This document shows positions 1 through 5,092 of a DNA stretch of 64,000 nucleotides, piece after piece (position 1 is the first letter of the stretch; every line of letters begins with the position of its first letter). The notes beneath the pieces are model-generated. The model was not told the origin of the DNA and ran no database searches. It saw nothing but the letters and a program-made list of their open reading frames with translations. Source of the stretch: an uncultured SAR116 cluster alpha proteobacterium (GTDB lineage: Bacteria; Pseudomonadota; Alphaproteobacteria; Puniceispirillales; Puniceispirillaceae); contig CACHEI010000005.1 in assembly GCA_902578815.1 (NCBI GenBank), positions 1-64,000 on the forward strand, written 5' to 3'. Both the position numbers and the translations under genes were made by a program.

Positions 1-211
1 TGATTAGTGGACAGGCCTTGACGAATAAATCGGCGACCTGATCAGGCCGCGATACCGGCGCAACGAAGAATTGATAAAGCGCCTGCAGCGGATCGTAACC
101 CAGAGTGGCAAAGATGATCGCACCAACAACAAGGGTCAGCGCAATCGCAAGAACCGGTGTCACCACCGTTAGCACCAGCGAGATATCCTTGCGGGGAACA
201 AGAGAGATCAT
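1..211 (-). CDS. ABC transporter permease, N-terminal part (BMP/nucleoside-type), cut by window edge
   Basis: The first about 70 codons of an integral membrane permease are present; the gene runs off the left edge. The protein starts MISLVPRKDISLVLTVVTPVL, followed by one long hydrophobic helix (about residues 12-36) and then a segment containing GYDPLQALYQFF, as in YufP/NupP-type permeases of the BMP-family nucleoside or simple-substrate ABC importers. The ATG at 209-211 overlaps the TGA of the upstream ATPase fragment as ATGA, which fixes the start and shows translational coupling. It belongs with the ATPase piece (208-741), the second permease piece (742-1431) and the binding protein (1489-2619). 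It points the opposite way from the last two, which is not the normal operon layout. Family assignment rests on a short stretch plus context. Confidence 0.72.
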   Translation of the reverse strand, partial: MISLVPRKDISLVLTVVTPVLAIALTLVVGAIIFATLGYDPLQALYQFFVAPVSRPDQVADLFVKACPLI

Positions 212-741
212 GCATCCACCTCCTCGCCTGTGGCACTGCCACCCATAAGTAGACCAACCTTTTCTGCAGTCAAGTCGGTTGCATCCATGGCCGCAGACAA
301 ATACCCGTCGTACAGCACGGCAATCCGATGCGCGATCGTGAAAACCTCCTCAAGATCCTGCGAAATCATCACCACCGCCGATCCCATCGCGGCAAGCTCA
401 AGCATCGCTGCACGTATGTACATCGCCGCACCAACATCAACGCCCCAGGTAGGCTGAGAGACCACGAGAACCTTTGGAGACTTGGCGATTTCCCGCCCAA
501 CGACAAATTTCTGCAGATTGCCACCAGACAGCGCTGAGGCCAGCGGATTCTCATTTGGCAGTCGAACGTCAAAGGCCGTCGCTACATCAGCCGACGCTTG
601 GCGAATTGCATCCTCGTCGATGACACCCTTTTTCACCACACCAGCAAGCGAATGACTTGTCAGCAGATTGTTGTCGGCAAGCGACATTGTCGGTACCGCG
701 GCGTGGCCATTGCGTTCTTCTGGAACAAAACCGATGCCGGC
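208..741 (-). pseudogene. ABC transporter ATPase, C-terminal part, truncated at an inverted junction
   Basis: About 178 codons are readable on the minus strand, ending at the ATGA overlap with the permease. Motifs fit the second nucleotide-binding domain of the YufO/NupO (RbsA-like) ATPases: GIGFVPEERNG, MSLADNNLL, the ABC signature LSGGNLQK, the Walker B/D-loop block QPTWGVDVGA and the switch region MISQDLEEV. A full protein of this family is about 500 residues, so the whole first ATPase domain and the start of the second are missing. Homology runs upstream through an AGIGFVPEER block (to about 741) and then turns into antisense of a plus-strand permease. The internal ATG at 687 is not a real start because family sequence continues upstream of it. 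As it stands the product could not work; the missing half is probably on the other side of an inversion or is a chimera artefact. Confidence 0.8.
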
Positions 742-748
742 ATTTTTG
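733..748. other. Inverted junction between two halves of one ABC operon
   Basis: Left of this point the minus strand reads as the C-terminal half of the ABC ATPase. Right of it the plus strand reads as the C-terminal two thirds of the second permease of the same transporter type. Both family matches stop within about 15 bases of each other, and neither 5' part is found. If the ancestral order was ATPase, permease 1, permease 2, binding protein on one strand, a single inversion from within the ATPase to within permease 2 gives exactly this layout. Inverted joins of this kind are also a typical artefact of multiple-displacement amplification. The exact base of the join cannot be set from one sequence. 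Confidence 0.7.
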
Positions 749-1431
749 CCTTTTTTGCTCTGGGTCTGGCAACCAATCAGGTAGCAACAGGGCTTGCCCT
801 AACAATCTTTGGCACGGGGTTGTCCGGCCTAATTGGGGCGCCATTGGTGGGTCAAGCCATCGATGGGTTGCCGCGGATCCATCTACCTATACTTGCCGAC
901 CTCCCGTATGTAGGGACGCTTCTGTTCCAGCATGACATAATGGTTTATTTGGCCGTTTTCATAGTTGCCATGTGTGCATGGGTGTTAAATGTCACTCGTA
1001 TTGGGCTGATTATTAGAGCTGTTGGTGACAATCATGACAGTGCACATGCTCTTGGATATTCAGTGCTTGGTGTACGCTTGCTGGCAGTAACGTTTGGTGG
1101 CATGATGGCTGGCCTTGGGGGTGCCTATCTCCCGCTGGTTTTGACACCACACTGGGCGGAGGGAATGACTGCTGGCCGTGGCTGGATCGCGCTAGCTCTT
1201 GTTGTCTTTGCGTCGTGGCGGCCTTGGAGAGTTTTAGGTGGTGCATTGGTTTTCGGCGGCATAACAATTATGCAGCTAGCTGGACAGGCAAGAGGGTGGA
1301 CAATTCCATCTCAATTCCTGTCGATGTTGCCTTATCTAGCGACGATCATCGTTTTGGTATTGATCTCGCGGAATAGGGAATTTGCGCTAGCTAATTCGCC
1401 GGCTTGCCTTGGTAAAATTTTCCATAGGTAA
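742..1431 (+). pseudogene. ABC transporter permease 2 (YufQ/NupQ-like), 5' end missing at junction
   Basis: From about codon IFAFFALGLATNQVATGLAL onward the plus strand encodes a hydrophobic permease of the BMP-linked ABC importers. It includes the conserved LTIFGTGLSGLIG segment, the coupling-loop region RIGLIIRAVGDN with SAHALGYSV, and the GGMMAGLGGAYLPLVL and WIALALVVFASW helices. An open frame extends left to 598, but that part is only the antisense of the ATPase gene and does not belong to the permease; a chimeric protein starting at 598 should not be annotated. A normal member has about 300 residues, so roughly 70 or more N-terminal residues are missing. The binding-protein gene follows after 57 bases, so this half of the operon keeps its normal order. 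Confidence 0.8.
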
Positions 1432-1488
1432 GAATTTTATTCGTTTTGTTGGTTTTTAGTTAGTTAGTAAAAAAACAGGGAGAAACTC

Positions 1489-2619
1489 ATGCAGAGCAAC
1501 AGATTAATACTCATATTGCTTGGTCTGGTATTACTTGCAGGCCTAGCACTTTTCTTGGTGCCAAAAGAGGTCACTGAAAAGGTCGCCCTCCGAGACTCAA
1601 AGGTCAAAGTTGGTTTCGTATACCTTACGAATCCGGGGGACCATGGCTGGACCTATGCACACGAAGTTGCGCGCTTGGAGGTCAATGAGCATTTTGGTGA
1701 CAAGGTTGAAACATCTTATGTTGAAAATGTTCCTGAAGGTCCTGACGCGGCTCGTGTCATTCGGGAACTTGCAAAACAAGGCAACAAGATCATTTTTACA
1801 ACCTCATTCGGTTATATGGATCCAACACTGAAGGTGTCAAAAGAGTTTCCAGATGTAAAATTTGAGCATATTACCGGCTACAAGCGGTCCGGCAATATGG
1901 CAACAGGCAACATTCGGTTTTATGAGGGCCGCTACGTTCAGGGAGTTGTTGCCGGAATGATGACAAAGAGTAACAAGATTGGGTATCTTGCCTCTTTCCC
2001 AATCCCTGAAGTTATTCAGGGCATTAACGCATTCGCGCTTGGAATGCGTTCGGTTAATCCCAATGCTGAAATGTCAATTATCTGGGTAAACAGCTGGTAT
2101 GATCCTGTCAAAGAAGCCGACGCAGCAAAGGTACACATTGCTGAGGGCGCGGATATTTTGGCCCAACACACAGACAGCCCGGCCATGCTGCAGACTGCCG
2201 AGAAGGCTGGCGTGCATGGTTTTGGCCAGTCAAGCGACATGAAGGAGTTTGCCCCAAAGGCACAGCTCTTCAGTTCGGTAAACAACTGGGGACCCTATTA
2301 CATCTCAAAAATCGAGCAGCTGATGGATGGTTCATGGTCTACTGGCGAAGGTCCAGATCACTGGGCTGGTAATACTTGGCTTGGTATGGCTGATGATTAC
2401 CTCGTTCTAACCGATTTTGAGAACATGCCAGCTGACGTTAAAATGGCTGCAGAAGCAGCAGAAGCTAAGATTAAAGGTGGCTACAATATTTTCACAGGCC
2501 CCTACAACGATAATGAGGGTAATGTCATTCTCCGGGCTGGCGAGGCCTATAATGATGGCAACCTATGGAATGACATGAACTACTATGTTGAGGGTGTAAA
2601 CGGAAAGATTCCGGGCTAA
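1489..2619 (+). CDS. BMP family ABC transporter substrate-binding protein
   Basis: This 376-residue protein is the extracytoplasmic binding component of a BMP/PnrA-type importer, which commonly binds nucleosides or related small molecules; the substrate cannot be read from sequence. It starts with a hydrophobic segment (residues 6-24) with no clear lipobox cysteine, so it is either a cleaved or an anchored periplasmic protein. Family blocks include KVGFVYLTNPGDHGWTYAH (about 43-61), the FTTSFGYMDP block, the YEGRYVQGVVAGMMTKSNKIG block and the VNSWYDP block. An AGGGAGA ribosome site at 1477-1483 lies just upstream of the ATG. It follows the truncated permease and is followed by a hairpin (2644-2670), so it probably ends the transporter operon. 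It is intact although its partner genes are broken at the junction. Confidence 0.9.
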   Translation: MQSNRLILILLGLVLLAGLALFLVPKEVTEKVALRDSKVKVGFVYLTNPGDHGWTYAHEVARLEVNEHFGDKVETSYVENVPEGPDAARVIRELAKQGNKIIFTTSFGYMDPTLKVSKEFPDVKFEHITGYKRSGNMATGNIRFYEGRYVQGVVAGMMTKSNKIGYLASFPIPEVIQGINAFALGMRSVNPNAEMSIIWVNSWYDPVKEADAAKVHIAEGADILAQHTDSPAMLQTAEKAGVHGFGQSSDMKEFAPKAQLFSSVNNWGPYYISKIEQLMDGSWSTGEGPDHWAGNTWLGMADDYLVLTDFENMPADVKMAAEAAEAKIKGGYNIFTGPYNDNEGNVILRAGEAYNDGNLWNDMNYYVEGVNGKIPG

Positions 2620-2729: not shown

Positions 2730-3704
2730 ATGAACGAAAAAAAATTGAAGATTTTCGTGACGCGTCGCTGGCCAGCAGCTGCTGAAGAAGCTTTATGTGA
2801 CCACTTTGACGTTACTTTAAACACAAATGATGCGCCACTGACAAAAGAGGAGCTGATAGAGGGTTTTGCTAGGCATGATATTGCCGCACCGACAGTTTCT
2901 GACAATATCGACACTGATATTATCGCTGCTGGTGCCAAAGGGAGTTGTAGGCTCATTGCAAATTATGGTGTTGGGGTCAACCACATTGATTTGCTAGCTG
3001 CGAGGACTCACTCAATGCTGGTTAGCAACACACCCGGTGTGCTGACGGATGCAACAGCAGATTTGACCTTGACGCTGATGCTAATGCTCTGCCGCCGTGC
3101 CGGTGAGGGCGAGCGTGAGCTCCGCGCTGGGAAATGGAGCGGCTGGAGGCCGACCCATCTGGTCGGCAGAGCAATGACCGGTAAACGGCTTGGTATTATT
3201 GGGATGGGCCGGATTGGCAAGGCGGTTGCCCGGCGGGCTTATTTTGGGTTTGGCATGCAGATATGCTTTTACAACCGCTCGCCTGTTGGTGATGTGGATG
3301 ATATGAAGGCAGAGCAGATGGGTAGTGTTGCCGAAGTGTGCGCCAATAGTGATTTTGTCAGCCTGCATTGTGCCGCCAGCCCTGATACCTTTCAAATTCT
3401 GGGTGCTGAGGCACTCGCAGCACTACATGAAAGCGCCTATGTCATTAACACCGCCCGTGGTGACGTTGTTGATGAAGCGGCGCTAGTCGCAGTCCTTAAT
3501 GCAGGGACCATTGGCGGTGCTGGATTGGATGTCTATAAGGGCGAGCCCGAGATCAATCCAGCCATTCTTGCCGCCAGTAACACTGTCCTTTTGCCGCATC
3601 TGGGTTCGGCAACTGTCGAGACCCGCACGGCGATGGGGCTTAAGGTGGTTGAAAATGCCCGCGCCTTTGCTGCAGGACAGGATCTCATCGACCCGGTGAC
3701 ATGA
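2730..3704 (+). CDS. D-isomer-specific 2-hydroxyacid dehydrogenase (glyoxylate/hydroxypyruvate reductase type)
   Basis: This 324-residue cytoplasmic NAD(P)H enzyme has the substrate-side block NYGVGVNHIDLLAA (about residue 78) and the Rossmann motif LGIIGMGRIGKAVARRA (about 151-167). The catalytic residues are in place: Arg in NTARGDVVDE, Glu in YKGEPEINP and His in LPHLGSAT. I chose the ATG at 2730 because a GGGG ribosome-site core sits 9 bases upstream; an in-frame TTG at 2715 would add five residues. The next gene, glycerate kinase, overlaps by ATGA, so the two are coupled. Reduction of glyoxylate or hydroxypyruvate to glycolate or glycerate, followed by phosphorylation, is the natural reading. 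Substrate specificity is inferred from the kinase neighbour. Confidence 0.87.
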   Translation: MNEKKLKIFVTRRWPAAAEEALCDHFDVTLNTNDAPLTKEELIEGFARHDIAAPTVSDNIDTDIIAAGAKGSCRLIANYGVGVNHIDLLAARTHSMLVSNTPGVLTDATADLTLTLMLMLCRRAGEGERELRAGKWSGWRPTHLVGRAMTGKRLGIIGMGRIGKAVARRAYFGFGMQICFYNRSPVGDVDDMKAEQMGSVAEVCANSDFVSLHCAASPDTFQILGAEALAALHESAYVINTARGDVVDEAALVAVLNAGTIGGAGLDVYKGEPEINPAILAASNTVLLPHLGSATVETRTAMGLKVVENARAFAAGQDLIDPVT

Positions 3705-5002
3705 TGTCTGCAAAGGCAGACAATCTGCAAGGCTGGCAACATATAGCGCTTGCGGCGTTTAATGCTGCGCTCGACATTGGGCATCCCGCGCGTCTGACTA
3801 GCGCTGCAGTGGCCAAACTTACCGCCCAGGTGACAGCGATCATCGCAATTGGCAAAGCGGCTGCCTCGATGACGATTGCCGCGCGCGGTTCAGATGCAAT
3901 CAGTCCGGATGTTCCAGGCATTATCGTCACAAATGACGAGAATTTCGTTAGTGTTGATGGCATGGACTGTCACGCAAGCGCCCATCCAGTTCCTGATGAA
4001 CGGGGGCTGGAGGCGGCCTCGGCTGTGACACAAATGGCCAAAAGCCTGACGGGTGACGACCATCTGCTGCTGCTGATCAGCGGTGGTGGCTCAGCCCTGT
4101 TGCCGGCCCCGGTGCCGGGCGTTTCGCTGGCGGAAAAGCAACAGCTCAATGAGGCACTTCTTGGGAGTGGGATGGATATCCACCAGATGAATGCGATCAG
4201 GCGGCTTTTTTCTACACTGAAGGGTGGACGTCTTGCTAAACTGGCGCATCCCGCAAAAATCACTCAATTGCTACTATCAGATGTGCCGGAAGACAGGCTA
4301 GAATCCATTGCAAGCGGTCCGGCAGTTGGCGATCCGGTGCCACTTGAGGTGGCGGTCTCAATGATTGCTGATGCTGGGCTTGATAGGCTGGATTTCGTTG
4401 CGCGCCATGTGGAGGCATTGCTTGGGGGGGCGGCTGACCAACCAGTACGACCCGGTGAGGCCGAAATCGCCCATGTGAAAAGTCAGATTCTAGCCAGCAA
4501 CGCGCTGTGTCAGGATGCAGCCGCCAGAAGTTTGATGAGGGCCTTTAAGAGGAAAGGTGAGGCTGTGGGTCCGCTCGTCGGTGAGGCGGCTGAGTGTGGC
4601 CGCGAAATGGCCCGCCGCATCACCGAACGGATGCGCCATCAAAGGCAGATGGTCTATGGTGTCACTGGCGGTGAGACAACAGTCTCACTCGGTAGTGGCC
4701 TGGGCGGCAAGGGTGGCCGGTCACAAGAGCTAGCGCTTGGCTTTGCTGATGAAATGGTCGCTATGGCACGGCCGCCGGCTCGGTGGCTGATTCTGGCTGG
4801 TGGAACGGATGGACGCGATGGTCCGACGGACGCAGCCGGTGCCATCATACACTCCGGCTCATCCTTCGATCAGCTGGCCGTGACACGGGCATTGGCAGAC
4901 CACGACAGCTATCACTACCTCTCAGCGCATGATCAGCTTTTGAGAGTGCCGCCAACGGGAACCAATTTGGGTGATCTGGCGATTTTCATAGCCCTCCCAT
5001 AA
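3701..5002 (+). CDS. Glycerate 2-kinase, type II (MOFRL family)
   Basis: This 433-residue enzyme is of the GckA/TtuD class, which phosphorylates D-glycerate to 2-phosphoglycerate and feeds lower glycolysis. Visible blocks are AIGKAAASM near residue 50, the glycine-rich LLLISGGGSALLPAPVPGV (about 125-143), SDVPEDRLESIASGPAVGDP, the MOFRL segment with YGVTGGETTV and GKGGRSQELALG, and LAGGTDGRDGPTDAAGA near the C-terminus. Length is normal for the family. Its ATG lies inside the end of the dehydrogenase gene (ATGATG with TGA at 3702-3704), so the two are translated together. With isocitrate lyase next door the block suggests use of glyoxylate and C2/C3 acids. The symbols gckA and ttuD are both used for this family, so none is assigned. 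Confidence 0.9.
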   Translation: MMSAKADNLQGWQHIALAAFNAALDIGHPARLTSAAVAKLTAQVTAIIAIGKAAASMTIAARGSDAISPDVPGIIVTNDENFVSVDGMDCHASAHPVPDERGLEAASAVTQMAKSLTGDDHLLLLISGGGSALLPAPVPGVSLAEKQQLNEALLGSGMDIHQMNAIRRLFSTLKGGRLAKLAHPAKITQLLLSDVPEDRLESIASGPAVGDPVPLEVAVSMIADAGLDRLDFVARHVEALLGGAADQPVRPGEAEIAHVKSQILASNALCQDAAARSLMRAFKRKGEAVGPLVGEAAECGREMARRITERMRHQRQMVYGVTGGETTVSLGSGLGGKGGRSQELALGFADEMVAMARPPARWLILAGGTDGRDGPTDAAGAIIHSGSSFDQLAVTRALADHDSYHYLSAHDQLLRVPPTGTNLGDLAIFIALP

Positions 5003-5037
5003 TGAACTAGTAAGGGGCAAAGCAAAAAACCCTTCCG

Positions 5038-5092
5038 GTTCTTGAGGCCTTTTTAGCGACGATGCCAGTTGCCTCCCTAGGCCTCAAAGAAC
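5038..5092. terminator. Inverted repeat between convergent glycerate kinase and aceA genes
   Basis: TTGAGGCCT (5042-5050) and AGGCCTCAA (5079-5087) are perfect complements; the arms extend to GTTC and GAAC at 5038 and 5092 with one bulged A. The loop is 28 bases and starts with a T run. It lies between two converging genes, so a bidirectional terminator is the simplest reading. The long loop makes it less certain than a compact hairpin. Confidence 0.5.

Follow-up and report, generated by a model that had tools for sequence, protein, structure and literature searches.

An inverted join inside a Bmp/PnrA-type importer operon at a SAR116 contig start: a probable amplification chimera

Introduction

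The closest described counterparts of the structure analysed here are chimeras formed during phi29 (MDA) amplification. In excerpts of Lasken and Stockwell 2007 (PMC1855051), 85% of 475 phi29 chimeras were inverted, 83% of the inversions joined segments less than 10 kb apart, and priming involved up to 21 matching nt. Excerpts of a second study give opposite-strand chimeras a span of 0-5000 nt and an overlap peak of 6 nt (PMC4595205). Chimeric joins can also persist into assembled contigs: two Prochlorococcus single-cell assemblies are described, in part of another source, as having seven chimeric contigs each (PMC2731171).

On the protein side, the nearest systems are the Bmp/PnrA-type ABC importers (PF02608, PF02653; NCBIfam 'putative B6' transporter NF047927-NF047930), with a binding protein, two permeases, and one fused ATPase.

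Here we examine a window of 64,000 bases, that is, bases 1-64000 of an 81,093-base contig (C5) of a SAR116 genome (G000; 2.07 Mb, 82 contigs, completeness 70.44%). Window base 1 is C5 base 1, so there is no sequence left of the window to inspect. A preliminary description had proposed that an inverted join near the contig start splits one ABC operon, either through inversion or through an amplification chimera. We compared the window with four same-genus SAR116 relatives: AG-893-M18 (G001), AG-901-J20 (G002), MED-G116 (G003, a MAG), and AG-916-C06 (G004).

Results

Position and geometry of the join

The start of C5 matches contig C1 of AG-916-C06 in two ungapped blocks. Window 1-744 corresponds to C1:104823-105566 on the same strand (744 bases, 87% identity), and window 736-1426 corresponds to C1:103714-103024 on the opposite strand (691 bases, 82% identity). 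Judged from the alignments, both matches are far beyond chance. Position 105566 of the relative is joined to position 103714, and hence two nearby segments, 1.85 kb apart, meet in inverted orientation, as they do in inverted MDA chimeras. The contig ends 743 bases beyond the join. On its right-hand side, C5 stays colinear with C1 of AG-916-C06 for 22 kb (1603-23593) and is so again at 66840-77667. The inverted join is real within the assembly, and on the alignments it accounts for every gene piece around it. These are as follows, with gene coordinates and residue numbers taken from relative locus L112:

1-211, minus strand: permease 1, first 70 codons of 367 (the relative's length); ORF 2-211, open at the contig end, colinear with permease 1 of AG-916-C06
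208-744, minus strand: ABC ATPase, C-terminal third (residues ~353-530 of 530); ungapped match to C1 of AG-916-C06
598-1431, plus strand: open frame across the join, 834 bases, 277 aa
736-744, no strand: the join, nine bases within both matches, from base-level comparison with the four same-genus relatives
745-1431, plus strand: permease 2, C-terminal three quarters (from residue ~72 of 304); 82% ungapped match to C1 of AG-916-C06; PF02653
1489-2619, plus strand: substrate-binding protein (Bmp/PnrA-like), whole, last gene of the operon; PF02608, E 2.7e-46; colinear with relatives

The ATPase piece is open over 178 codons, its first stop is the gene's own, and its protein identity is 86%. Permease 1 is cut short where the contig begins, at base 1. 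The preliminary description had this layout right in outline: the minus strand does hold a C-terminal piece of the ATPase and permease 1, and the plus strand does hold a C-terminal piece of permease 2 and the whole binding protein. Its proportions need correction, since a third rather than a half of the ATPase is present, permease 1 amounts to its first 70 residues, and three quarters rather than two thirds of permease 2 remain. The join lies at 736-744; it had been put at about 741. The proposed geometry of a single inversion explains all the pieces, given that the intact operon of the relatives is codirectional. The warning that the 834-base frame would be a false fusion is also borne out: permease sequence begins only after ~745, PF02653 covers residues 51-252, and the first ~49 codons are the ATPase gene in antisense, without a Pfam match.

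The nine bases at 736-744 read GCCGGCATT. As this assembly lacks its own parent sequences, those of the relatives were used to judge the overlap. The ATPase parent reads GCCGGCATT in three of the four relatives and GCCAGCATT in one; the permease parent reads GCTGGCATT in two and GCTGGTATT in the other two. By the strictest count, over all parents, three bases are shared at the join; with two of the permease parents the count is six, and it would be nine if the genome's own permease had GCC. Estimated from the relatives in this way, the 3 to 9 shared bases fall within the short junction matches (2-21 nt) of inverted MDA chimeras.

Just downstream of permease 2, window 1427-1602 (the intergenic stretch and the first ~38 residues of the binding protein) matches AG-893-M18 and none of the other three relatives, which have a different signal region ahead of the same mature binding protein.

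The operon is codirectional in relatives

In AG-916-C06 the ATPase (530 aa), permease 1 (367 aa), permease 2 (304 aa), and binding protein (364 aa) follow one another on one strand, and the operon is codirectional in all four same-genus relatives. We fetched 80 loci from public genomes, dropping ATPase matches below 45% identity as paralogues, as well as weaker matches that overlapped better ones. A locus counted as testable if it had a readable ATPase and binding protein on one contig. In all 74 testable loci the operon genes present share a strand and keep the usual order, and none of the 74, all from other species, has the window's arrangement; this comparison had been proposed in the preliminary description and supports it. 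Six loci have no ATPase: in L036, L061, L063, L068, and L071 the operon runs into or near a contig end, and L105 is a misjoin (see below). In L075 (OY288107.1), ~2.1 kb at about 2971-5086 separates permease 1 from permease 2 in an otherwise codirectional operon.

The PF02608 binding protein, the PF02653 permeases, and the fused ATPase place the operon among Bmp/PnrA-type ABC importers, with the codirectional order read in the relatives and broken by the join in the window. Compared with the NCBIfam 'putative B6' transporter, all scores here lie below the curated cut-offs, and we therefore assign no substrate to the importer.

Further along C5, window 23600-64000 (to about 66840 on the contig) is a low-GC island, at about 35-39% versus 51-56% elsewhere in the contig, and it hardly matches the syntenic contig of AG-916-C06 at the nucleotide level. 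Ten ORFs scanned there gave matches that include O-antigen ligase, NeuB, asparagine synthase (twice), and heparinase-like, UDP-sugar dehydrogenase, and ABC transporter families. From these matches, the island looks like a surface-polysaccharide island.

The broken genes retain constraint

Against the four relatives, dN/dS is 0.07-0.17 for the ATPase piece (178 codons), 0.035-0.093 for the permease 1 piece (70 codons), and 0.04-0.06 for the permease 2 piece (222 codons). No premature stop or indel was seen in any of these three broken or cut pieces in the same comparison. By these ratios, all broken parts are under strong purifying selection; if the break is real, it would be too recent for any trace of decay.

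The missing pieces and the other contig ends

A 10-kb stretch of AG-916-C06, comprising the operon and both flanks, matched the window's own genome only at the C5 pieces and at one 165-base site on C7. The N-terminal part of the ATPase, the remainder of permease 1, and the N-terminal part of permease 2 are absent from the assembly. Also absent is the gene next to the operon in AG-916-C06, which from the appearance of its sequence we take to be ammonium-transporter-like. Only one junction is present: neither the reciprocal join nor the normal continuation on either side of the join was found in this assembly. As about 30% of the genome is missing, the absent reciprocal join weighs little. The preliminary description had named a complete ATPase and permease 2 elsewhere as a sign that the fragments are unrelated. 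The full-length ATPases on C28 and C40 are 38-39% identical, and we rejected them as paralogues.

To place the C5 start among its peers, 33 other contig ends (20 starts and 13 right ends; the C5 start and C82 are outside this set) were probed against MED-G116 and AG-916-C06, one probe spanning 20-129 and the other 2850-2959 bases in from the end. For 23 ends, which could thus be judged, the two probes hit the same relative's genome. None of these has an inverted join, and all keep the strand and order of the relatives; for 22 ends, one relative or more shows a probe spacing of about 2.8 kb, and for the remaining one the spacing is 4.2 kb. Such joins are therefore rare in this assembly. Exact end-to-end overlaps, as in SCGC AAA536-G10 (see below), were not found among the 33 contig ends compared. 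Excerpts of PMC5519541 describe a single-cell pipeline with end trimming and a contig cut-off of >2000 bp; since trimming would remove such overlaps, their absence is neutral. The start of contig C4 (G000:C4:1-900, L130) consists of degenerate tandem repeats, which are probably the reason that C4 ends there.

A probable misjoin in the same gene of SCGC AAA536-G10

In locus L105 (ARQU01000012.1, SCGC AAA536-G10), similarity to relatives stops abruptly inside the permease 2 gene, at bases 5062-5063. The left part corresponds to AG-337-O15 (the genome of L107) C2:8707-13772 on the plus strand, and the right part to C2:38591 downwards on the minus strand, which makes an inverted join across 24.8 kb with a 2-base overlap. 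Both normal continuations are present in SCGC AAA536-G10. The end of its contig C6 carries the ATPase, permease 1, and the start of permease 2, and overlaps the right side of the join by 95 identical bases; the start of its contig C12 has an exact 95-base overlap with the left side. Hence, the L105 join is most likely artificial. Like the join in the window, it interrupts permease 2 with a switch of strand, again in a SAR116 assembly. It differs in lying at residue ~32, in having its partner 24.8 kb away, and in keeping the normal paths as contig ends. This locus shows that such an error occurs in SAR116 single-cell assemblies; it is no proof for the window's join.

Discussion

We consider it likely that the join is an inverted chimera from phi29 amplification of one cell's DNA. 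Published phi29 (MDA) chimeras resemble it in orientation, distance, and overlap, and the proximity to a contig end, the missing reciprocal join, the lack of decay, and a second single-cell misjoin in the same gene also favour this origin. The preliminary description had raised it as one alternative; the tests lean its way and fall short of proof. As in the chimeras of PMC1855051, to the extent excerpted, the segments are inverted and less than 10 kb apart, the intervening part is omitted, and the junction match is short, although those chimeras were seen in sequencing reads of an E. coli cell, whereas here there is an assembled contig alone and the single-cell origin is inferred. Similarly, a chimeric join persists into an assembled contig as in PMC2731171, where, in the part cited, 454 assemblies were checked against a reference genome, while the comparison here is with relatives of about 81-87% identity.

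Nine shared bases at most would not by themselves lead a k-mer assembler astray, so molecules already joined must be involved. In the amplification scenario, copying would first have run across the binding protein and into permease 2, leaving a displaced 3' end. This end may then have annealed, via a few matching bases within GCCGGCATT, to a displaced strand of the nearby ATPase gene, and been extended in the opposite direction, a presumed strand switch. Thin local coverage would have failed to outvote the chimera, and the assembler would have followed it for 743 bases until the data ended. A join this close to the contig end is what one would expect if coverage gives out and nothing outvotes the chimeric molecules. 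The operon is accordingly expected to be intact in the living cell.

This account presumes a genome of single-cell MDA origin, as we infer. Three of the four relatives in the genus have AG-numbered records, as the single cells do, and the shortest contig (C82, 2277 bp) is compatible with the >2000 bp cut-off of the single-cell pipeline (PMC5519541, in part). No 16S match was found in the genome; excerpts of PMC11247762 report 16S in 66% of marine SAGs versus 8% of MAGs. The absence leans towards a MAG, and the single-cell origin is not secure. The 23 judged contig ends, all running as in the relatives, likewise count against an amplification chimera.

A real and very recent inversion of ~1.85 kb via a short repeat, with one end in the ATPase and the other in permease 2, would yield exactly the same single join and inactivate the transporter. 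The short shared sequence is there at the join, and a recent event would also leave the codons intact. Against it stand the 74 testable loci of relatives, where it is unseen, the reciprocal join not found in a genome that is 70% complete, the strong purifying selection read from all parts, and the position: a random inversion would fall this near a contig end in an estimated <2% of cases (2 x 743 / 81,093). On balance we hold a real inversion to be unlikely. A bolder version, in which the inversion switched off the Bmp-type importer and the SCGC AAA536-G10 join marks a hotspot selected for transporter loss, strikes us as very improbable.

Somewhat less likely again than the simple inversion is an artefact made without MDA, either a library PCR chimera or, if the genome is a MAG, a mixed-strain misassembly. 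The missing 16S, as in most MAGs (PMC11247762, in part), and the insecure single-cell origin speak for it. Strain mixing alone, however, does not create an inverted join between segments less than 2 kb apart, so short an overlap does not mislead a k-mer assembler, and the combination of inversion, proximity, and short overlap is the MDA pattern, as excerpted from PMC1855051 and PMC4595205. That 598-1431 is a true gene, fused or antisense, is scarcely credible: a single open frame does span the join, but its first ~49 codons run antisense to the ATPase gene with no Pfam match, and none of the 74 testable loci of relatives has the arrangement.

The finding is ordinary, and its main use is as an annotation warning. 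If the join is an artefact, the fusion protein read from 598-1431 is false, and C5 should have its first 743 bases masked or split off. The SCGC AAA536-G10 example shows that comparing gene order with relatives is a cheap way to detect such joins in public single-cell genomes. For the organism, an artefact would mean that the operon would be miscalled as broken or lost in the species, whereas a real join would mean that an inversion had knocked out a conserved importer.
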